NCBI GenBank assembly: GCA_937899415.1
Contig: CALBPI010000056.1
Location: 62,001-126,000 of the forward strand
Length of the DNA stretch: 64,000 nt
From: an uncultured Gammaproteobacteria bacterium
GTDB taxonomy: Bacteria; Pseudomonadota; Gammaproteobacteria; Steroidobacterales; Woeseiaceae
Direction of reading: 5' to 3'
The notes below the pieces were generated by a model, which made no database searches, was not told the origin of the DNA, and saw only the letters and a program-made list of their open reading frames with translations. Shown piece after piece: positions 21,242-47,709 of this stretch. The stretch's first letter is position 1; every line of letters begins with the position of its first letter. The translations under genes were made by a program, and so were the position numbers.

Positions 21242-22363
21242 ATGAGCCTGCTGGACAAGATTACCGGCCGTAAGCGCCCCGCCACCGCAGCGGCGGGCGG
21301 CGGCCAGGGCGGCGGCGACGTCAGCCTGCTCGACGGAAGCCTCGACACCCTATCGGCCGTTCTCCGCACGATGGGCGAGTTTTCGTTTGAGCTCGAAGAG
21401 GAAATCGAAGGGTTTCCGGACCGTTGTGCACACTACGCACGCCACGTCGCCACGGGCGCGGGCATTGAAGACGAAGGTATCTCCAAGAGTGACGATGGCC
21501 AGCGCGAGTGGGGCCGGGTCCGTCGCTTCTACACCGAGCGCCGCCAGCAGGAGGCCGAGTTCGTCGAGGAACGGCTCCGCAACTACCGCCTGCTCGTCGA
21601 GGACCTGGCCGTCGGCCTGCGTTCGGTGGCTACGCGCGAAGCGCTCACGGAAACTGCGGTCCGTTCAAGCCTCGGTGACGTTGAGCGCGCCGCCGACACG
21701 GGCAGCGTTGCCGATATTCGCAGCGCCCTGACCACGGCCATCACCACGGTCGTACAGGCCTTTAACGAGCAGCGCCGCCAGTTCGAGGCGCAGCTGTCAC
21801 AGTCGAACGCCCGCATGATGAGCCTGCGGCGCGACCTCGCCGTGGCCCGCGAGGACCTGAAGCGCGACCCGCTGACCGACGCCTACAACCGCGGCGCCTT
21901 CGACACAGGCCTGCAGCAGGCCGTGGCGCTGAATTTCCTGCTGCGCCAGCCGACCACGATCGTCATGCTGGACCTCGACAACTTCAAGTCCATCAACGAC
22001 GAATACGGCCACGCCGCAGGTGACGACATCCTGCGCTCGGTGGCCGACTGCCTGGCGCGCACCTTCGTGCGTCGCTCAGACCTCGTGGCCCGCTACGGCG
22101 GCGAGGAATTTGCCCTGATTCTGGCCGATGTCGATGTCAAAGCCGCGGAGCCGCTTGTTGAGCGCTTCCTCGACACCGTGCGCTCCACGGTCAAGATCCC
22201 CTACGCGGGCGACGATCGCATCGTCACCTGCTCGGCGGGCCTCACAGAGCTCTTGCCCAGCGACACTGTCGAGACCGTTCTGCTGCGCGCTGATCGGGCG
22301 CTGTACCGCGCCAAACGCGAAGGCCGTGATCGCGTTCGCATCGAAATCTCGGAAGTCGCATAA
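21242..22363 (+). CDS. GGDEF diguanylate cyclase
   Basis: 373 residues. The N-terminus (~1-200) is soluble, helical, with a Gly-rich linker (15-26) and coiled-coil-forming segments. The C-terminal GGDEF domain (~205-373) is complete: catalytic GGEEF at 286-290, substrate/metal residues in [19 protein letters not shown], and an RxxD inhibitory site (277-280) exactly five residues upstream. It should therefore make c-di-GMP with product feedback inhibition. No membrane helix and no known sensor domain. It lies between the FleQ-like activator gene (divergent) and pomA (same strand, 142 bases downstream), suggesting a role in motor control. Confidence 0.93.
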
Positions 22364-22375
22364 ACACTGGGCTTC

Positions 22376-22394
22376 AGGCGTCTCCGCGACGCCT
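22376..22394 (+). other. Hairpin between cyclase and pomA
   Basis: AGGCGTC-TCCGC-GACGCCT, a perfect 7-bp stem 12 bases after the cyclase stop. There is no T-run, so at best a weak terminator or mRNA end. Confidence 0.4.
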
Positions 22395-22412
22395 CTGGTA
22401 CCCCCAAAACAC

Positions 22413-22439
22413 TAAAGTTCTGCGGCACCCGGACGCCAT
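22413..22439 (+). promoter_or_regulatory. Weak FliA (sigma-28) promoter candidate for pomAB-pilZ
   Basis: The -35 half TAAAGTTC matches the sigma-28 consensus in seven of eight bases; 15 bases after TAAA the -10 (GACGCCAT) matches only about half of GCCGATAA. Motor genes are commonly FliA-dependent in this group, but the site needs proof. Confidence 0.3.
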
Positions 22440-22505
22440 CACGGGTGGTGGATTACGCATCGCGTAGCCCCACGTGCAGCCGCAGACTAACTCGGAGGAA
22501 GGCTC

Positions 22506-23270
22506 TTGGACCTCGCTACCCTGATCGGGCTGATTGGCGCCTTCGGCGTGATCTTCGCGTCCATTTTCATGGGCGGCTCCATCTCCACGTTCATCAACGT
22601 GCCCTCGCTGACCGTGGTGTTCGCGGGGACGTTTCTCGTGACGATGATGAAGTTCTCGCTCGGACAATTCCTGGGTGCGGCTAAGGTTGCCGTCAAGGCT
22701 TTCATGTTCAAGCTTGCGACGCCGCAGGAGCTCATCGAGAAGGCCGTCGAACTGGCGAAGGCCGCACGCCAGGGCGGGATCCTCGCGCTTGAGGAAGCCG
22801 AAATCAACGACGAATTCATGCAGTCAGGCGTCAACCTGCTCATCGACGGGCACCAGCCCGAGATTGTGCGGGACATGCTTATCAAGGACATGCAGCTGAC
22901 CGTGCAGCGTCACGAGGAAGGCCAGAACATCTTCAAGGCCATCGGTGACGTAGGCCCGGCCATGGGCATGATCGGGACGCTCATCGGTCTCGTACAGATG
23001 CTCTCGAACATGGACGACCCCAAGCAGATTGGTCCGGCCATGGCTGTCGCGCTGCTCACGACGCTCTACGGCGCCATCCTCGCCAACATGTTTGCACTGC
23101 CCATCGCCGACAAGCTCTCGTTGCGCAGCGGCGAGGAGAAAGACAGAAAGCGCCTCATCATCGATGCCTTGCTGGGCATCCAGGAAGGTCAGAACCCGCG
23201 CGTCATCGCGAGCATGCTCGAGGCTTACCTGCCCAAGTCGGCGCGGACCAAAGAAGAAGCCGAAGCGTAA
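22506..23270 (+). CDS. pomA: Flagellar stator protein PomA/MotA
   Basis: 254 residues from TTG 22506, preceded by GGAGGA seven bases upstream; no ATG fits the N-terminal helix (DLATLIGLIGAFGVIFASIF). Four transmembrane helices with the large cytoplasmic loop between helices 2 and 3 (residues ~50-145) and the conserved GPAMGMIGTLIGLVQML and GAILANMFALPIADKL of helices 3-4. The proton/sodium channel is formed with PomB, the next gene 13 bases downstream. Closer in pattern to PomA/MotC than to E. coli MotA (shorter, no long C-terminal extension). Confidence 0.95.
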   Translation: MDLATLIGLIGAFGVIFASIFMGGSISTFINVPSLTVVFAGTFLVTMMKFSLGQFLGAAKVAVKAFMFKLATPQELIEKAVELAKAARQGGILALEEAEINDEFMQSGVNLLIDGHQPEIVRDMLIKDMQLTVQRHEEGQNIFKAIGDVGPAMGMIGTLIGLVQMLSNMDDPKQIGPAMAVALLTTLYGAILANMFALPIADKLSLRSGEEKDRKRLIIDALLGIQEGQNPRVIASMLEAYLPKSARTKEEAEA

Positions 23271-23283
23271 GGGCTAACTCCTG

Positions 23284-24177
23284 ATGGAAGAGGCACCCAA
23301 AGCAGAAGAAGGCGGTGGCGTCCCGGCATGGGTGATGACCTTCGCCGACCTCATGACGTTGCTCATGTGCTTCTTTGTGCTGCTGCTCGCGTTCTCTGAA
23401 ATGGACGCGCAGAAATTCAAGGAGCTGTCGGGCTCAGTCAAGAACGCGTTTGGTGTGCAGGCCGAGATCGAGGCACGCACGATCCCCAAAGGCACCAGTG
23501 TTATCGCCCGCGAGTTCAGCCCGGGCAAACCGCAACCGACGCTCATCAACGATGTACGCCAGTTCACCATCGACTCGAACCAGAACACGCTCGAGTTCGA
23601 TGAGGAAGAAGACAACGACGAGCTCGAGCGCGAAGCGGAGCGCATTCGCCGCGCGCTCGAGGCCGAGATTCAGGACGGTGCCCTGGCCGTGGTGACGGAA
23701 CAGGACAAAGTGGTCATTCACATCCTGGAGAAGGCGTCGTTCGGCTCGGGGGATGCCACCGTACGCCAGACGTTCAAGCCCACGCTGAACAAAATCGCCA
23801 AGCTGCTGCCCTCGTCCAACGGTCGGATCGACGTCGCGGGGCACACCGACAACGTGCCGATCTCGACGTCGCGTTTCCGCTCTAACTGGGAGCTCTCGAC
23901 AGGACGTGCCGTATCGGTCGCGCAGCTGCTCTTGGGCAACGCCGAGCTCGAACCCCGCCGGTTCACGGTGACAGGCCACGCAGACACACAACCACGCGCG
24001 GAAAACGATACGGCCGAGGGCCGTGCCGCGAACCGCCGTGTCGACATTCGTATCGTCATCGGCAAAGACTGGGATTCGCCCAATGTCATCAGCGCCGATG
24101 ACGTCCTGTTGCCACGCGAGGCAACACGCAGAGACCTGAGCGACGAGACCGGGACGCAGGAAGCGCCCGCACCGTAG
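23284..24177 (+). CDS. pomB: Flagellar stator protein PomB/MotB
   Basis: 297 residues. Short N-terminus, one membrane helix (~14-36) with the ion-binding Asp22 in TFADLMTLLMCFFVLLLAFSEMD; the Cys and FFVLLLAFSEMD context resembles the sodium-type PomB of vibrios. Residues ~40-130 form a long linker/plug with an acidic EEEDNDELEREAERIRR segment, then the OmpA-like peptidoglycan-binding domain (VAGHTDNVPIST, RAANRRVDIRI). It anchors the stator to the cell wall. Coupling ion is an inference from motif resemblance. Confidence 0.95.
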   Translation: MEEAPKAEEGGGVPAWVMTFADLMTLLMCFFVLLLAFSEMDAQKFKELSGSVKNAFGVQAEIEARTIPKGTSVIAREFSPGKPQPTLINDVRQFTIDSNQNTLEFDEEEDNDELEREAERIRRALEAEIQDGALAVVTEQDKVVIHILEKASFGSGDATVRQTFKPTLNKIAKLLPSSNGRIDVAGHTDNVPISTSRFRSNWELSTGRAVSVAQLLLGNAELEPRRFTVTGHADTQPRAENDTAEGRAANRRVDIRIVIGKDWDSPNVISADDVLLPREATRRDLSDETGTQEAPAP

Positions 24178-24188
24178 GGAGTGACACC

Positions 24189-24812
24189 ATGACAGACCAG
24201 GCCAACATGAGTCAGGGCGAGCGCGAGATGCGCCGCGCATTCCGCATCCGAGAGCAGGCGTTTATCGAGGTCCGAATTCTGACTGACTCGGAGTACGCCG
24301 CTGTACTTGAGTCACGCGCACTGCAGCAGCCCAGTGCGTTCGGCAATCATGCGCGCCTCGTCAGCCTTGAGAACCGATTCCAGGAAGCCTTCACACTGCT
24401 CGGAAACGCGTCGTTGCCGGTACGTGAGTGCCTGTCAGCGCTCAACGAGAAGCTGAGCCTGCTGTTCGAAGAGCAGCCTGAGCGCCAGGCGGTCATGACC
24501 CGACTGACAAGCGGCGACGCGGCGACCTGTGAAATCGGCGCCACGGGCCTTCGATTCGATCATGATGTCCACATCGAGGAAGGCAGCAAGGTCTTTCTTC
24601 AGGTGCTGCTGACGGCAGACCGACACTATCTGGAGACGGCTGCTGTGGTTCGGCGGACACCGCCGCCCCTCAACGAGAGCGTGGATGGCCGCTACGGCGT
24701 CGCCGCCGAGTTCGTGGGCTTCAGTGAGGCCGAGTCGGAACTGCTTATCAAGCACTTGTTCCAACGCGAAAGCGAAAGCCTGCGCATGCGCAGGCTCAGC
24801 ATGGACGATTGA
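24189..24812 (+). CDS. PilZ-domain protein, probable c-di-GMP effector of the motor
   Basis: 207 residues from ATG 24189, with GGGAGTGA upstream. The two PilZ motifs are split: an RRAFRIRE (RxxxR-type) near residues 15-22 and, about 95 residues later, CEIGATGLRF (D/NxSxxG-type with Ser replaced by Gly). A helical insertion of ~80 residues between them recalls the non-canonical tetrameric PilZ group of xanthomonads, some of which do not bind c-di-GMP tightly. Placed 11 bases after pomB, it is the obvious candidate for a YcgR/FlgZ-like brake or stator-recruitment factor. Last gene of the plus-strand motor operon. Confidence 0.8.
   Translation: MTDQANMSQGEREMRRAFRIREQAFIEVRILTDSEYAAVLESRALQQPSAFGNHARLVSLENRFQEAFTLLGNASLPVRECLSALNEKLSLLFEEQPERQAVMTRLTSGDAATCEIGATGLRFDHDVHIEEGSKVFLQVLLTADRHYLETAAVVRRTPPPLNESVDGRYGVAAEFVGFSEAESELLIKHLFQRESESLRMRRLSMDD
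24777..24796. other. 20-bp perfect palindrome at the 3' end of the PilZ gene
   Basis: AGCCTGCGCATGCGCAGGCT is identical on both strands, inside the last codons of the PilZ gene. With a second palindrome GCGCGATCGCGC at 24819-24830 it sits at the junction of two convergent genes only 27 bases apart; possible transcript end or protein-binding site. Confidence 0.55.
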
Positions 24813-25706: not shown

Positions 25707-26108
25707 CTAGCGCGGGCCGTGTAGGCGCACGAGCAACTCGGCTTCACCGGTCGAAACGCCGCAACGTCGCGAGATCTCCTCCACCGGGAGTCCCTCTCGT
25801 GCACAACCCGTCGCATCTGTTAGCGACCGCGGGCTGGAAATCTTGCATTGTTCGAGCTGCGCATGGACGAGCTCCTGCAATCGGGCGTTGACGCTGTCGA
25901 GCTCCTGTTCGACACGGACGAGGCCTGGCGCCGCCAGCTCTGTGCTCACGTCGCCGCGTGACGCGACCAGTTCGGCCAGTCGGCGCAGATTGCCGTCCTG
26001 CTGATGCAGCCGGCGGCGCACGCCCAGCAAGGTCGTGAACGTAACGATAAACATGAAGGCGAAAACCACGGCCAGGGCGCCTGGATAGGTCAGCGTTGCA
26101 ACAGTCAC
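25707..26108 (-). CDS. DUF2802-family protein
   Basis: 133 residues. One N-terminal membrane helix (~10-28), a coiled-coil middle, and the compact C-terminal helix-turn-helix-like DUF2802 part (CAREGLPVEEISRRCGVSTGEAELLVRLHG). The family is typically encoded at the end of flagellar/chemotaxis operons next to cheW; function not known. Its ATG overlaps the fliA stop by 4 bases, so it is co-translated with fliA. Confidence 0.85.
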   Translation of the reverse strand: MTVATLTYPGALAVVFAFMFIVTFTTLLGVRRRLHQQDGNLRRLAELVASRGDVSTELAAPGLVRVEQELDSVNARLQELVHAQLEQCKISSPRSLTDATGCAREGLPVEEISRRCGVSTGEAELLVRLHGPR

Positions 26109-26848
26109 AGCTTGTCTCCGAGATAATCAGCGTAGTCGCCGAGACGTGATTTGAGCCGCAGCAGGGCCTGCCCATGAATCTGGCAGACGCGGGATTCACT
26201 GACGCCCAGGATCATGCCCACCTCTTTGAGGTTCATGTCGCGCTGGTAGTACAGCGACAACACGAGGCGCTCGCGCTCGGGCAGTTTCGAAATCGCACCT
26301 TCGAGGCGGTCCGTGAACTGGGTTTCCTCCAGTGCGTCTTCGGGCTCAGCGTGGTCAGCCGATGCGATTTCGCGCGAGCGGTCCGAGTCCGTGTAGGGCT
26401 GCTCGAGGCTGAACAAGCGGCAACTCGCCGAGTCGCGCAACACGTCATGGTATTCCTCGAGCGGCATATCGAGATGGTCGGCTATTTCCTGATCGCTGGG
26501 GTGGCGCCCGAGATCAGACTGCAGCTCGGAGATGGCCTCCGTGATGCTGCGGTAGCGCCGGTGCACGGAGCGCGGTGTCCAGTCGGACTTGCGCACCTCA
26601 TCGAGAATCGCGCCCCGGATTCGGATACCCGCGTAAGTCTCAAAGCTCGCCCCGCGACTCTCGTCGTAGTGCGCCGCAGCCTCGATGAGTCCGAGCATAC
26701 CCGCCTGCACGAGATCGTCGAGCTCAATGCTTGCGGGCAACTTGGCGAGGATGTGATGCGCAATGCGCTTCACGAGCACAAGGTTATCGTTGATGAGTTG
26801 CTCCGAGGCGCTGGCCGCGCCCGTGCTCTTGGCTTGTGCGTAGCTCAT
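26105..26848 (-). CDS. fliA: Sigma-28 factor FliA
   Basis: 247 residues. Region 2 (ELDDLVQAGMLGLIEAAAHYD, FETYAGIRIRGAILDEVRKSDW), region 3 and a region-4 helix-turn-helix (LKEVGMILGVSESRVCQIHGQALLRLK) are all complete. It directs late flagellar promoters such as those found here upstream of fliC (51989-52015) and flgM (63532-63558) and is held by the anti-sigma factor FlgM encoded at 63595. Overlaps fleN by four bases. Confidence 0.97.
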   Translation of the reverse strand: MSYAQAKSTGAASASEQLINDNLVLVKRIAHHILAKLPASIELDDLVQAGMLGLIEAAAHYDESRGASFETYAGIRIRGAILDEVRKSDWTPRSVHRRYRSITEAISELQSDLGRHPSDQEIADHLDMPLEEYHDVLRDSASCRLFSLEQPYTDSDRSREIASADHAEPEDALEETQFTDRLEGAISKLPERERLVLSLYYQRDMNLKEVGMILGVSESRVCQIHGQALLRLKSRLGDYADYLGDKL

Positions 26849-34545: not shown

Positions 34546-34893
34546 TCAGTTCAGCGTCTGAATGCGTTCGGCGGGGCTCACCACATCGGTGAGGCGAACG
34601 CCGAACTGACCGTCGACGACAACGATCTCGCCGCGGGCCACGAGCGTGCCGTTGACGAGCACGTCGAGCGGCTCGCTGGCGCTGCGTTCAAGCGCCACCA
34701 CCGAGCCTTCGGCCAGGTTGACGAGTTCGCGGATGGAAATGGTCGTGCTGCCGACCTGCAGGGCCAGCGTCACAGGGACATCGAGAATCAGGTCGAGATT
34801 GACGTCGGCCTGGCTGGCCGCGTCACCGGCCGTCGGCGTCATTGCGTCGGGCGCGTACTTCTCTTCGGTGGCGGCGTCGTTGGTGTCACTCAT
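34546..34893 (-). CDS. fliN: Flagellar switch protein FliN
   Basis: 115 residues. Acidic N-terminus, then the SpoA domain (LDLILDVPVTLALQVGSTTISIRELVNLAEGSVVALERSASEPLDVLVNGTLVARGEIVVVDGQFGVRLTDVV) with all expected core positions. C-ring component that binds FliH and export cargo. 41 bases downstream of fliM. Confidence 0.95.
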   Translation of the reverse strand: MSDTNDAATEEKYAPDAMTPTAGDAASQADVNLDLILDVPVTLALQVGSTTISIRELVNLAEGSVVALERSASEPLDVLVNGTLVARGEIVVVDGQFGVRLTDVVSPAERIQTLN

Positions 34894-34934: not shown

Positions 34935-36023
34935 TTAGCGGCGCTGGCCATCAGCAGCCAGCCAGCGCTCGAAGCGGAATGCGTTGGCGCCTTCGCTGGT
35001 GCCGAAGCTGCCCTCGGCGCGCTCGACGCCGCCGATCGCGAGGCGGGCCCTCTCGGGTGCCGCGATCGGCAGCAGGTCACCAGGCTTAAGCGTGACGACC
35101 TGGCGCAAAGGCAAGGTGATGTCGCTGACGTGGACATCCGTGACCACGTCCGTTTCCGCGAGATAGTGTTCGAAGCAGGCGCGCCAGTGCGGGTCGCCTT
35201 CGACGCGGCGGGCGTTTGCCGCACCCTCCAGGTCGTCCATGATCGAGGCAACCTGGGTGTCCGGAAGCAGCAGGCGCAGGTGGCCTGTTTGCCCGGCGAC
35301 ACGAATCTCGAAGCGGCAGACGATGACGCGTTCCTTCGCGTCGATGCCACTGCCGATACTGGGGTCAAACTCGCGAGCCAGTACTTCGGGGGAAAGCGCA
35401 ATGAGTTTTTCCCAGGACGGTGTCACCGTATCGAGAAACTGGGCCATCGCGAGCTCGGCGACGCGCAATTCGCCCGCCGTGAATTGTTGCCGCGCTGGTC
35501 GCGGCGGTGGCTCGGGGCGCGGCTCGGCAGCGCCCGCCTCGTCCGATTCGGCTTCAGGCTCCTCGGCTGTAAATCCGAAGAAGGCCTCAACCAGCGCGGT
35601 CAGCAACGCGTCATCGATGAGGATAAGCGCGTTACCGGGCAACGGCTGCAAGGCCACGCGCAGCGTAATGATGGGCGGCACGGTCTTGGCGATGGCCGCC
35701 GCGAATCCGGCAGAGAAGGTCTCATCGGCGGTGACGCTGACGCGTGTGCGCAACAACGTCGACCAGAGCGCAGCCGTGCGTTTTGCCATCTGCTGACAGA
35801 TGCCCTGCAAACGGGGGAAGCTGCCGAAATTGATGTAGGCGTCGGGCCGCAATTCGAAGGGCATGACGCTGGCGGCCGAGTCGCTGTCGCCCGCACCGCC
35901 GACCACACCCGCCTCGACACCGGCCAGCAAGGCATCCTTTTCGTCGTCGGACAGAATCTCTTGCGGTGCTTCGGCGGCCTCTGCGCCGCTGTCGCTGACT
36001 TCGTTTTCGGGCGTGTCAGCCAT
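34935..36023 (-). CDS. fliM: Divergent flagellar switch protein FliM
   Basis: 362 residues, about 30 longer than usual. The CheY-P-binding peptide is retained (ILSDDEKDALLAG, residues 23-35) but is preceded by ~20 acidic residues instead of lying at the very start. The middle CheC-like domain is recognisable (VMPFELRPDAYINFGSFPRLQGICQQ). The FliG-binding loop that normally reads FFGGxG is FFGF (148-151), followed by an inserted Glu/Ala/Pro-rich stretch (152-180). The C-terminal SpoA domain is intact (DITLPLRQVVTLKPGDLLPI). Overlaps nothing; directly after fliL. Confidence 0.9.
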   Translation of the reverse strand: MADTPENEVSDSGAEAAEAPQEILSDDEKDALLAGVEAGVVGGAGDSDSAASVMPFELRPDAYINFGSFPRLQGICQQMAKRTAALWSTLLRTRVSVTADETFSAGFAAAIAKTVPPIITLRVALQPLPGNALILIDDALLTALVEAFFGFTAEEPEAESDEAGAAEPRPEPPPRPARQQFTAGELRVAELAMAQFLDTVTPSWEKLIALSPEVLAREFDPSIGSGIDAKERVIVCRFEIRVAGQTGHLRLLLPDTQVASIMDDLEGAANARRVEGDPHWRACFEHYLAETDVVTDVHVSDITLPLRQVVTLKPGDLLPIAAPERARLAIGGVERAEGSFGTSEGANAFRFERWLAADGQRR

Positions 36024-39949: not shown

Positions 39950-40569
39950 TGGCGCTGATCGCCCATGAGCGCATTGACCATCGTCGCAATACGCGATTCG
40001 ACGCGTGCGTCAATGTTCGAGCTCTCACTTGAGATGTGGCAGCCGCCCCGCGTCAGCGCGGCGTCGTGCACGATGCGCCAGCGCGCACTGGCGGACTCCT
40101 CATTGGAACTCGCATCACGACCCAGGATGGCCTCGAGCCGATCCGCGTCTTCGGGGTGCAGGTGCACGGTAATCTGTGACGCTGTTACGGGCAGCAGGGA
40201 CACGGCATCGCGAACAAGGCCCACGATACTGTCGGGGTCGAGCTCGAGCTGACGCTTGAACATGCGCCCGACCATGACCGTCACCATGCGCGCGAGCTGC
40301 ACCTCAAGCGCGTCGTCGAGTTCGTCGAGCGGCGCCGCCAGGTGCTGAAGCGTCGCCTCGAGCAGGTCGCGGCGCGCCGTGAGTTCCTGCGCGGCCTCGA
40401 CCAGGCCCTGTTCGCGACCTTCCTCGAGCCCCTTGCGCATGCCTTCGGCGCGCGCTTCCTCGTAGGCTTGCTGCTGCAGTTCCTCGAGGTCTGCGGCCGT
40501 GAGCATGCCCGACTGGGGAAAGTCGGGCGCCTGCCAGCGATCTTCGCCGCCGGACTCAGACGTACTCAT
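39946..40569 (-). CDS. fliH: Flagellar assembly protein FliH
   Basis: 207 residues from ATG 40569, which overlaps the fliG end by 14 bases; the longer frame to 40653 lies in fliG. N-terminal W-x-P-type motif (RWQAPDFP), a long Glu/Gln-rich coiled coil ([20 protein letters not shown]) and the V-ATPase-E-like C-terminal domain ([29 protein letters not shown]). Regulates FliI. Confidence 0.92.
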
Positions 40570-41563
40570 CGTCACTGTCACCAAGGTTGATGTCGCCGTT
40601 GTCGGCCAGGCGGCGCGCGACTTCGAGGATTTCCTTCTGCGCCGCTTCGACATCGGAGAGTTTCATGGGGCCGCGGGCCTCCATGTCTTCCTCAAGCAGC
40701 GCGGCAGCGCGTTTGGACATGTTCTGGAATATCTTCTTCTGAACGGCCGGGTCGGCGCCCTTGAGCGCGATCACGAGGCGGTCGTTGGAGACCTCGCGCA
40801 ACAGCGTCTGGATACCGCGGTCGTCGACATTGAGCAGGCTGTCGAAGACGAACATCATTTCGGCGATACGGTTACCGAGATCGGGGTTGGCCAGGTTGAT
40901 CTGTTCGAGCACGGCCTCGCCATCGGCGTTGTTCAGCGCGTTGACAATGCCCGCGGCAACGCGGTCACCGCCAACCTTGGCGGTTCGCGATACCGTGATG
41001 TTCGAGGACTTGGCGGCGATCAGTGATTCGATTTCGGCGAGTGCGCTTTGCTGCACGTCGTCCAGTCGCGCCACACGCATGACCACCTCGGCGCGCAACG
41101 CGTCCTCAAAGTTGGCCAGCACCTCGGCGGCCTGCTCGGCTTCAAGGTAGGACAGTACGATGGCGATGATCTGCGGGTGTTCGTCGCGCACCAGCTCGGC
41201 GATCGACTCGGCGCTCATCCACTGCAAGGTGTCGAAGCCGCTCGCGTCGCCGTCGACGAGAATGCGGTCGATAAACGCATCGGCCTTGTTGGCGCCAAAG
41301 GCGTTGGTCAGCACCTTGCGGATGTAGTCCTCGGTGCCCACGCCAAATGACGCGGCGTCGTCCACGGTTGTGACGAAGGTCGAAAGCACCTCGTCGGCCG
41401 CCTCGCGGGTCACATTCTTGAGCCCCGCCATGGCCACACCGACGGCCTGCACTTCCTTGGGCTTCATGTGCTTGAGCACCTGGGAGGCCTCCTCCTCGCC
41501 CAGCGACATCAGGAGGATGGCGGCGCGCTCGGTGCCCGAAATCGGGTTCTCGTCACTCGCCAC
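40556..41563 (-). CDS. fliG: Flagellar switch protein FliG
   Basis: 335 residues from GTG 41563 (frame is open upstream into fliF; TTG 41572 is an alternative). All three domains are present: N-terminal FliF-binding (SGTERAAILLMSLGEEEASQVLKHM), middle with the EHPQ motif (VRDEHPQIIAIVLSYL), and C-terminal torque helix with conserved charges (FVFDSLLNVDDRGIQTLLREVSNDRLVIALKG). EHPQ is intact although its FliM partner loop is altered. Confidence 0.95.
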   Translation of the reverse strand: MASDENPISGTERAAILLMSLGEEEASQVLKHMKPKEVQAVGVAMAGLKNVTREAADEVLSTFVTTVDDAASFGVGTEDYIRKVLTNAFGANKADAFIDRILVDGDASGFDTLQWMSAESIAELVRDEHPQIIAIVLSYLEAEQAAEVLANFEDALRAEVVMRVARLDDVQQSALAEIESLIAAKSSNITVSRTAKVGGDRVAAGIVNALNNADGEAVLEQINLANPDLGNRIAEMMFVFDSLLNVDDRGIQTLLREVSNDRLVIALKGADPAVQKKIFQNMSKRAAALLEEDMEARGPMKLSDVEAAQKEILEVARRLADNGDINLGDSDDEYV

Positions 41564-43241
41564 TGTCGTCAATCCATTTGCGCACGACCTGCGCGACGCG
41601 CGCGGGGTCGTGTCCTGTGATGTTTCGAGCCGCGGCGACCTTCTCCTGGTAGGAGAGACCCGGTGTGCTGGGCGCATCGAGCTGACCCGCCACACGGCCG
41701 CCGCCTTCGCCGTCGCTCGGCAGCAGCGTGCTCAAGCCGCCGCTTGGCGCGGGCGGTGTAACGATACTTTTGAGCATCGGCCGCACGATGCCAAAGGCCA
41801 GCACGAGCACGAGCAGTACGCCGCCGGCCTGCTTGCCGATTTCACGCACGATGGGCTGCTCCCAGATCGCCGGGCCCTCGCCGGGCTCCATGAGGGGCAC
41901 GGGCCTAAATGGCGCCACAACGACGCCGACGGAGTCGCCGCGCACCTCGTCAAAGCCCATGGCTTCGCGCACAAGCGCTTCGATCTCGGCCAAGCTGGGC
42001 GGCTCCGCGGCCTGGTTAGCGGCCGTCGCCGCGGCCGCATCGGCGGCTGTTTCGCCCTCGGCCGGCGCCTCGACGCTAGCTGCTGCTGCCTCCGGTGCCG
42101 TCAGCGCGACTTCGTCGACGATAACCGCAACCGACAGACGCTGGATCCGGCTGGACGGGCTTCGCGTGCGGGAAATCGTGCGGTCCATTTCGAAATTGCG
42201 CGTCGAGCTACGCGAGGAATTGAGCGTGTTGGCCTGATCAGCAGAGTCAGCTGCTACGCCGCCCGCCTCGGGCGGTGTATTCGTCAGCGCACCGGGTATG
42301 CCACCCGCCTGAGCCTCATTAGCCTGGCGCTGCTGTTCATTGATTTGTTCGCTGCGCACCACCTGCGAGGTCGGATCGAAGGCCTCGGTCGTGGCTTCCA
42401 CCACGGTGAAGTCGAGGCTGGCGGTCACCTCGGCGCGCACGTTGCCGTGCCCCAGCAACGGAATCAGGATGGCTTCGATGCGCCGTCGGTAGTCAGCCTC
42501 GAACTCACGCGTCATCTTGAACTGGTTGGCGGTCATCGCGTCGCTTTCCATCTCACCATCGCTCGACAGCAAATTGCCGAACTGGTCGATGAGCGTGACG
42601 TCCGCGGGCGCCATGTTGGGAATGGCGCTCGCCACGAGATTGATGATGGACTCAGCCTGCCCGGCCTCAAGTTGTTGGCCGCCGTAGAGTTGCAGGAACA
42701 CCGACGCACTGGGGCGCTGGCGGTCACGAATGAATGCCGACTCCTTGGGGATCGCCAGATGCACGCGCGCATCCTGCACCGCGCGCAGCGACTTGATGGT
42801 CTGCGACAACTCGGCTTCGATGGCGTGCTGGTAGCGCGCGGTTTCCATGAACTGGCTGACGCCGAAGCTCGACGACTCGCCCATGTCATCCATGCCGCCC
42901 TGCGACTGCCCAAGGCCCTGGGAGGCCAGCTGCATGCGTGCACTTTGTAACTGATCCGCAGGGACAAGAATGGCCCCGCTGTCCGCGATGTCGTATTCGA
43001 CACCGGCGTTGCGCAGCGCATCGACCACGGCGGCGGCCTCGCGTTGTTCAAGACCCGAGTACAACGATCGGTACTCGGGTTTCTGCGACCACATGACCAC
43101 GGCCACGCCGGCGGCGACGGCCAGTGCCACGCCAACCAGCAGCAACACCTGGCGCACGGCCGGTATCTGCAACACGTTGCCGAGCTGAATCTGCGGCACG
43201 GCGGCGGTCTGAATCTCAGTGGTGGGTACGGTAGCTTCCAT
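41553..43241 (-). CDS. fliF: Flagellar MS-ring protein FliF
   Basis: 562 residues. Two membrane helices (~30-50 and ~440-465) enclose the periplasmic ring-building domains (YRSLYSGLEQREAAAVVDAL, QDARVHLAIPKESAFIRDRQRPSASVFLQL); the C-terminus (YQEKVAAARNITGHDPARVAQVVRKWI) binds FliG. Confidence 0.96.
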   Translation of the reverse strand: MEATVPTTEIQTAAVPQIQLGNVLQIPAVRQVLLLVGVALAVAAGVAVVMWSQKPEYRSLYSGLEQREAAAVVDALRNAGVEYDIADSGAILVPADQLQSARMQLASQGLGQSQGGMDDMGESSSFGVSQFMETARYQHAIEAELSQTIKSLRAVQDARVHLAIPKESAFIRDRQRPSASVFLQLYGGQQLEAGQAESIINLVASAIPNMAPADVTLIDQFGNLLSSDGEMESDAMTANQFKMTREFEADYRRRIEAILIPLLGHGNVRAEVTASLDFTVVEATTEAFDPTSQVVRSEQINEQQRQANEAQAGGIPGALTNTPPEAGGVAADSADQANTLNSSRSSTRNFEMDRTISRTRSPSSRIQRLSVAVIVDEVALTAPEAAAASVEAPAEGETAADAAAATAANQAAEPPSLAEIEALVREAMGFDEVRGDSVGVVVAPFRPVPLMEPGEGPAIWEQPIVREIGKQAGGVLLVLVLAFGIVRPMLKSIVTPPAPSGGLSTLLPSDGEGGGRVAGQLDAPSTPGLSYQEKVAAARNITGHDPARVAQVVRKWIDDSGE

Positions 43242-46389: not shown

Positions 46390-47709
46390 TCAGGCTGCGC
46401 GGAGTTTTTCGACGAGCGTCGTGCGGCGCATGTTGAGCAGCCGCGCCGCGCGGGCGACCACGCCGTCGGCACGCGCCAGGGCGCTTTCGATGAGCGAGCG
46501 CTCGAGGTCGCGCAGGTAATCCTTTAGAGCAATGCCCTGTTCAGGCAACGCGCCTGCGGCGGTCTCGGCGTCGATGGCTTCGACGTCGACATTTGCGCCG
46601 CGGAATTTGTCGGGCAGGTCGGCAACGGTCACGATGCCAGTCGGGTGCAGGATCGCGAGCCGCTCCACAAGGTTGCCGAGTTCGCGCACGTTGCCGGGCC
46701 AGGCGTACTGCGCCAGTGCCGCGAGTGCGCAGGGCTGCAGCCGCAGCTTGCGTTGCGCACCCGATTCACTGCCAAGCAACAGCTCCGCGAGCAGGCCCGG
46801 GATGTCTTCGAGGCGCTTGCGCAGCGGCGGCATGTCGATCGGGAACACGTTGAGTCGGTAGTAGAGGTCTTCGCGGAACCGGCCTTCGGCCACGGCCTGC
46901 TGCAGATCGCGGTGGGTGGCCGCAACGATTCTCACGTTGGCGGTCCGCGTCTCGCCGCTGCCCACGCGCTCGAAGCGGCGTTCCTGAAGCACACGCAGCA
47001 ATTTGACCTGCATCGGCATGGGCATGTCGCCGATCTCATCGAGGAACAACGTGCCGCCTTCAGCCAGTTCGAAGCGGCCATTGCGCGTCGCAACAGCGCC
47101 TGTAAAGGCGCCCTTCTCGTGCCCGAACAACTCGCTCTCGAGCAGCTCGGCGGGAATCGCGCCGCAGTTGACGGGTACAAACGGGCCGTCGGCGCGATCC
47201 GACAAATCGTGAATCGTCCGTGCGACGAGTTCCTTGCCCGTGCCCGACTCACCGTTCACGAGAACGTTGGTATCGAAGCAGGCAACCTGTTCAATGAGAC
47301 CACGCACGTATGCGATGGAGGCAGAGCTGCCGGTCAGTCGCTGACGGCGTTGGTTGCCGCGGTAGCGACCGGCCTGCTCGAGCAGGTGCGCGAGGCGCGA
47401 GCGACGAACGGGTTGTTCGACGGGCCACACGGGTGCCGAATCGAGCACCGGCAGCAGGGCGTCCACGTCACCGGCGTCGCGCATCAGCAGGATGGGAGTG
47501 TCGGCAGGCAGCTTGTCGCCAGCGGCATCCAGGCTGGCCCGGTCGGCAACAATCGCCGCAATGCGGTCTGGCAGGGGATCCGTATCCACGTCGATGACGG
47601 GGTAATCGAGAAACTCGATCCGGTGGCGGAGATCGGCGAGCTGGCTTGAATCGGTGTGCATCACCCAAACCGCGTGCCGAGCGTCTTTTGCGACGTTCTT
47701 GTCTGTCAT
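46390..47709 (-). CDS. fleQ: FleQ, sigma-54-dependent flagellar master regulator
   Basis: 439 residues. FleQ-type N-terminal domain (~1-125, no phospho-Asp constellation), AAA+ domain with Walker [15 protein letters not shown] and [11 protein letters not shown], and Fis-type HTH ([21 protein letters not shown]). In Pseudomonas FleQ binds c-di-GMP and FleN. Synteny (between fliT and fleSR) marks it as the true orthologue, against the paralogue at 19791. No sigma-54 site in the 164 bases upstream, consistent with constitutive or sigma-70 expression; AGGACAGGCC precedes the ATG. Confidence 0.93.

Follow-up and report, generated by a model that had tools for sequence, protein, structure and literature searches.

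A divergent FliM in a Woeseiaceae genome that lacks a flagellar chemotaxis system

The closest described counterparts of the protein analysed here are the canonical, CheY-responsive FliMs of Salmonella, Vibrio and Thermotoga. Residues of FliM that serve "switching" and those that serve "assembly" have so far been sorted mainly through mutants of a few model bacteria. The contact between FliM and FliG includes the GGxG motif of FliM together with its I144-G147 stretch (PMC4642947), and in the CheY-bound C-ring, CheY contacts the alpha3-alpha4 loop of the FliM middle domain as well as the N-terminal helix (PMC11528121).

The motor of Aquifex aeolicus likewise belongs to a flagellate with a simplified switch, and Aquifex swimming is mostly smooth. 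A. aeolicus is also not known to have che genes. It is reported to lack FliM altogether (PMC7355467), unlike the genome described here.

We analysed a stretch of 64,000 nucleotides (the window) from an uncultured member of the Woeseiaceae, a family that the NCBI taxonomy places within the Woeseiales, Gammaproteobacteria, and that is widespread in marine sediment (PMC7451513, PMC12175321). The FliM encoded in this window shares with the canonical proteins its domain order, SpoA C-domain, middle-domain fold and fliL-fliN position, but it is without GGxG and without the I/V-E-G-R segment, has an altered N-peptide and carries a 17-residue insert, and no cognate flagellar che system was found in its genome.

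FliM and its partners in the rotor

The fliM gene (34935..36023, minus strand) encodes 362 amino acids and lies in the fli operon between fliL and fliN. Both domains of a FliM orthologue were recognised by Pfam, FliM at 53.9 bits (cut-off 27) and FliMN_C at 34.9 bits (cut-off 23.8). The score against the NCBIfam equivalog model TIGR01397 was 133.8 bits, below the cut-off of 219.6, which none of the Woeseiaceae sampled reached. This is the sole copy in the whole genome (3.94 Mb, 98.4% complete); a second, normal FliM elsewhere was rejected, as a genome-wide search found none. Use of FliM as a query in named genomes returned no relatives, but a FliI query succeeded, and the best matches of FliI from this genome were Woeseiaceae genomes.

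In the AlphaFold model, the middle domain (residues 63-265; 35229..35837, minus strand) is confident, and its predicted fold is retained, matching the solved middle domain 7dm9 with Z 24.5 and rmsd 1.6 over 169 aligned residues. The C-terminal SpoA/FliMN_C domain (residues 290-355; 34959..35156, minus strand) was located by Pfam and structure match. The first-pass annotation had claimed that FFGF replaces the FFGGxG of the FliG-binding loop, and alignments and residue counts bear this out (residues 148-151; 35571..35582, minus strand). The site reads GFxA, with the second and last glycines gone, and the G-F pair occurs only here, every other aligned FliM having G-G, S-G or G-S. The insertion of about 30 residues that was said to follow stands in part: a 30-residue stretch rich in Glu, Ala and Pro is real (residues 151-180; 35484..35573, minus strand; 7 E, 7 P and 6 A), but the net gain relative to relatives in the alignment is 17 residues. 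The stretch is predicted to be unstructured (pLDDT ~58-63, residues 150-180 being of low confidence), and, given the model, its best interpretation is a disordered loop upon an intact middle domain.

Alignment with sister taxa had been proposed as a check on whether the change is lineage-wide. Departure from GGxG is common in the family, 17 of the 32 distinct Woeseiaceae FliMs (this one included) departing from it and 15 keeping it, but the full G-F loss is unique to this FliM; other Woeseiaceae FliMs are free of the insert and have G-G (or S-G, G-S) at the site. Given these departures, the full loss here is the extreme of a loosening at the level of the family. Since half of the Woeseiaceae are without the full GGxG, the motif is tolerant there and not visibly replaced. 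Outside the family, GGxG was kept in all 24 CheZ+ genomes, in all 13 references and in 51 of 53 CheZ- genomes, and loss of che genes alone therefore does not explain losing it. For the segment that follows GGxG (HAKIEGREFT), the consensus match drops from 0.87 to 0.38 in CheZ- genomes and stands at 0.21 in Woeseiaceae. Other broken GGxG variants seen in the family are FYSGNS (L012, G015) and FGSETD (L107, G088).

The AlphaFold model puts the altered loop after the third and before the fourth helix of the middle domain, and by helix order it would be the published alpha3-alpha4 loop. Were the two equivalent, CheY and FliG would share a single loop, and the drift of that loop once CheY is gone would be explained.

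The partner proteins are less changed. The EHPQ motif of FliG (41171..41182, minus strand) is intact in sequence, as had been noted, and fliN (34546..34893, minus strand; Pfam, NCBIfam) is intact and, by score and rate comparison, moderately faster evolving. In the solved FliM-FliG middle-domain complexes (4FHR, 4FQ0, 4QRM), the FliM fold and the EHPQ side of FliG are the same as here, but there the glycine motif of FliM is at the centre of the contact (PMC4642947, PMC7355467), and this FliM has no such motif. Compensating FliG substitutions beside EHPQ were considered and rejected, none being fixed in Woeseiaceae within ~35 residues of the motif. With a middle-domain fold predicted to be normal, no such FliG change and half of the family without the full GGxG, the earlier statement that the interface "must be rebuilt" exceeds the evidence; a rebuilt interface is possible. 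The listed fliG ORF (40556..41695, minus strand; Pfam, NCBIfam) opens at a GTG ~45 codons too early, overlapping fliF, and its true start is probably near the fliF end.

The N-terminal peptide ILSDDEKDALL (residues 23-33; 35925..35957, minus strand) is, by alignment, an altered CheY-binding motif. Its core is preceded by 22 residues, compared with ~4 in most relatives and 23-80 in other Woeseiaceae, in agreement with the displacement of about 20 residues first described. The peptide had also been called preserved, which holds for the frame L...E..AL but not for every position: relative to the canonical LSQxEIDALL, Gln is changed to Asp and Ile to Lys, and every sampled Woeseiaceae FliM departs at the Q and I positions, and most depart at the D position. 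In CheZ- genomes, the consensus match is 0.98-1.0 at E, A and L, 0.30 at Gln, 0.17 at Ile and 0.36 at Asp; in Woeseiaceae, it is 0 at both Gln and Ile and 0.22 at Asp. The peptide is nevertheless among the best-preserved stretches of Woeseiaceae FliM, and something may therefore still bind it.

Chemotaxis genes in this genome and in other Woeseiaceae

In other gammaproteobacteria, as in Pseudomonas, a cheYZAB...cheW block is expected at fliA. Here, fliA is followed directly by a DUF2802 gene (25707..26848, minus strand) and the block is missing, a gene order also seen in che-less relatives. The succession of fliA, the DUF2802 gene, HDOD genes and then motAB on the other strand recurs in Woeseiaceae; in G034, a genome of the same order, cheZ lies just downstream of fliA. 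The flagellar gene set is full, and the flagellar genes in the window are open and intact.

Searches for CheZ, CheA, CheW and MCP revealed a genome without a flagellar chemotaxis system. CheZ and ordinary CheA are absent from the genome, the only CheA being of ChpA type, and the single MCP is of pilus type. It lies inside a Pil-Chp-like cluster that is also the sole CheW site, with two CheW, the ChpA-like CheA of 1938 aa, two small response regulators and that one receptor, which is PilJ-like. The cognate CheA, CheZ and receptor that accompany a canonical CheY-responsive FliM were thus not found in this genome. The link drawn by the first-pass annotation between the altered FliM and che genes missing from the locus is supported by these genome-wide results, and it also holds across the order, where FliM divergence tracks CheZ.

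A GGDEF protein, MotA, MotB and a weak PilZ-like protein are encoded in a row (21242..24812, plus strand), and these neighbours are conserved in Woeseiaceae relatives. This arrangement suggests a flagellum in which, without che genes, the stator or rotor may be controlled by c-di-GMP. A FleQ-like sigma-54 activator is encoded at 46390-47709 of the window, and Pfam did not recognise a FleQ receiver domain in it.

None of the 31 flagellated Woeseiaceae searched has CheZ. Their FliMs (e.g., those of G006, G008 and G017, the last corresponding to JAJFKP010000038.1 by agreement in FliM sequence) stand, as here, in a che-less arrangement or, for seven of the genomes, beside ordinary CheA without CheZ, and they are similarly fast evolving and in most cases carry the K in the N-peptide. 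The ordinary CheA lies within the flagellar cluster in three of the seven (G088, G090 and G091). That the additional CheA had restored FliM was rejected, as the FliMs of all seven are just as diverged. It is possible that the che clusters in these Woeseiaceae represent a regain of chemotaxis. In the three genomes with CheA in the flagellar cluster (loci L130, L131 and L133), the order is CheY-CheA-CheW-MCP-...-CheB, without CheZ, between the flagellin/fleQ side and fleS/fleR; similar clusters occur at other sites in G002, G009 and G067 (JAJFKU010000016.1).

FliM divergence and CheZ across the order

Identity to other Woeseiaceae is 26-31% for FliM and ~60% for FliG, FliN and FliI. Between Woeseiaceae and outgroups, FliM identity is 24%, versus 56% among outgroups, with the corresponding values being 60% and 62% for FliI and 62% and 61% for FlhA. 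In a sample of 138 flagellated genomes of the order, the fit of FliM to TIGR01397 was expressed as -log10 E and summarised as genus medians, a genus being counted as CheZ+ when CheZ was found in at least half of its genomes (10 genera) and as CheZ- when it was found in none (33 genera). The medians were 97-106 in CheZ+ and 36-86 in CheZ- genera (Mann-Whitney p = 2e-6, not corrected for ancestry).

Locus sequences from 90 genomes of this order, together with reference loci of other groups, yielded scores relative to reference. For CheZ+ genomes, CheZ- genomes and Woeseiaceae, respectively, they were 0.86, 0.48 and 0.27 for FliM, 0.84, 0.69 and 0.63 for FliN, and 0.91, 0.76 and 0.76 for FliG, compared with 0.94, 0.91 and 0.90 for FliI, 0.82, 0.81 and 0.82 for FlhA, and 0.78, 0.78 and 0.77 for FliF. 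Between CheZ+ and CheZ- genomes, FliF, FliH, FlhA and FliE showed no difference, and the median gap was at most 0.04 for FliI, FliP, FlhB and FliQ. A generally fast evolution of flagellar genes was rejected, because the switch proteins alone stand out. Branch rates on a tree of non-switch proteins with 95 tips, measured as branch length relative to a control of export and rod proteins, rose in CheZ- lineages 2.59-fold for FliM (3.65-fold in Woeseiaceae), 1.59-fold for FliN and 1.38-fold for FliG, and terminal branches alone agree for the acceleration of FliM.

The same tree contains a deep CheZ- clade of 48 of the 95 tips and eight smaller CheZ- groups, of which one, G159, has a normal FliM and, being an incomplete genome, may just be missing CheZ. 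With one deep clade and a handful of later losses, the association of FliM divergence with CheZ is therefore partly one event. The later losses were assessed in 12 genomes: each was paired with the nearest CheZ+ genome, and the FliM identity of the pair was set against that of CheZ+ pairs with matching control identity. FliM fell below the matched-pair median in 11 of the 12, the exception being G190, and these 11 also fell below the lowest matched pair, although two comparisons rest on just 2 pairs. In G190 and G273, which lack CheZ and have a single MCP, FliM is still near-canonical, and che loss therefore precedes FliM drift. The association holds for this one order. We found no prior report in the open literature of che loss together with FliM divergence or relaxed selection, though one may exist elsewhere.

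Explanations for the altered switch protein

We regard it as probable, if well short of certain, that this is an orthologous, structural FliM in a flagellum without chemotaxis signals, its switching surfaces having come under relaxed selection after che loss. An ancestor of the clade would have lost its flagella-linked che genes, cheZ included, and selection would then have relaxed on the C-ring parts that serve CheY-driven switching, on FliM most and on FliN and FliG mildly, with export and rod proteins relaxed hardly or not at all. FliM would keep both its fold and its position within the ring, presumably still binding FliG as well as FliN. Cells probably still build the rotor, with MotAB as its drive, and rotation is probably either mainly in one direction or under other control, conceivably that of c-di-GMP. 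In Woeseiaceae, the drift would have reached the GGxG contact too, and here the loop would have lost two glycines and gained its disordered acidic and proline-rich insert. The good preservation of the N-peptide counts against relaxation, as does the equal divergence of FliM in the seven Woeseiaceae with ordinary CheA. The acceleration of FliM could also be positive selection, the relatives being too distant for dN/dS; we infer relaxation and not adaptive rewiring as the cause.

Adaptive rewiring would mean that the FliM-FliG contact was rebuilt and that FliM answers another regulator through its N-peptide, such as the PilZ/c-di-GMP proteins beside motAB or a CheY-like protein from the pilus system. 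The invariant E, A and L of the N-peptide in Woeseiaceae, with Ile mostly changed to Lys and Gln mostly to Asp, would fit such a role, as would the conserved GGDEF-MotA-MotB-PilZ neighbourhood and the new fixed FliM residues common to the family. However, FliG shows no compensating fixed change near EHPQ, the regulator partner is only putative and the N-peptide could be preserved for another, structural reason, and we consider rewiring unlikely. A che-free, FliM-divergent flagellum inherited or transferred as a package would make the tie to CheZ a matter of ancestry, not of relaxed selection, and both the single clade that holds 48 of the 95 tips and the presence of family f10 genomes on both sides of that clade point this way. 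This account is quite improbable, as the pattern recurs in later CheZ losses that are nested among CheZ+ genomes and the divergence is limited to the switch proteins and spares the rest of the package.

The extreme divergence of FliM and the loss of a core motif might also be expected of a decaying flagellum in which FliM is becoming a pseudogene. Such decay is very improbable beside intact, open flagellar genes in the window, FliI, FliP, FlhA and FliE conserved as, or nearly as, in chemotactic species, and FliM core residues and a predicted fold that are preserved. Still harder to credit is an assembly or sequencing error in the FliM loop. The genus is represented by one genome, to which the GF and the insert are private, but half of the Woeseiaceae also depart from the full GGxG. 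A frameshift was rejected, since the flanks share one frame, the added length is divisible by three and the other frames hold no GGxG-like sequence; judged from the reading frames, a sequencing error behind the loop is unlikely.

If selection has indeed relaxed, lineages without chemotaxis sort FliM residues by evolution. The parts retained (the fold, the E..AL of the N-peptide, GG in most and the SpoA core) are likely to be required for assembling and rotating the rotor, and those lost (the rest of the FliG/CheY-facing loop and the Ile and Gln of the N-peptide) are likely needed for the response to CheY. A FliM that works without GGxG would, if true, correct the view of the GGxG contact as essential. 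A more far-reaching proposal, which we hold only tentatively and lean against, is that in CheZ-less lineages, Woeseiaceae included, the C-ring is no longer a CheY-driven switch, and that the most extreme FliMs do without the GGxG-EHPQ contact and are possibly under c-di-GMP/PilZ control via the N-peptide. Such lineages would form a series of motors in which the switching and torque functions of FliM are separated.

Two further observations concern individual genomes. In genus g49, the genomes G190, G273 and G290 have no CheZ and no ordinary CheA, their FliM is near canonical and their losses are apparently recent, which makes them useful for dating the order of events. G211 and G236 each carry two full-length FliMs, and the copy less than 2 kb from cheZ scores far higher against the FliM family model (342 vs 257 bits and 340 vs 255 bits, respectively), the same CheZ-FliM trend inside one cell.
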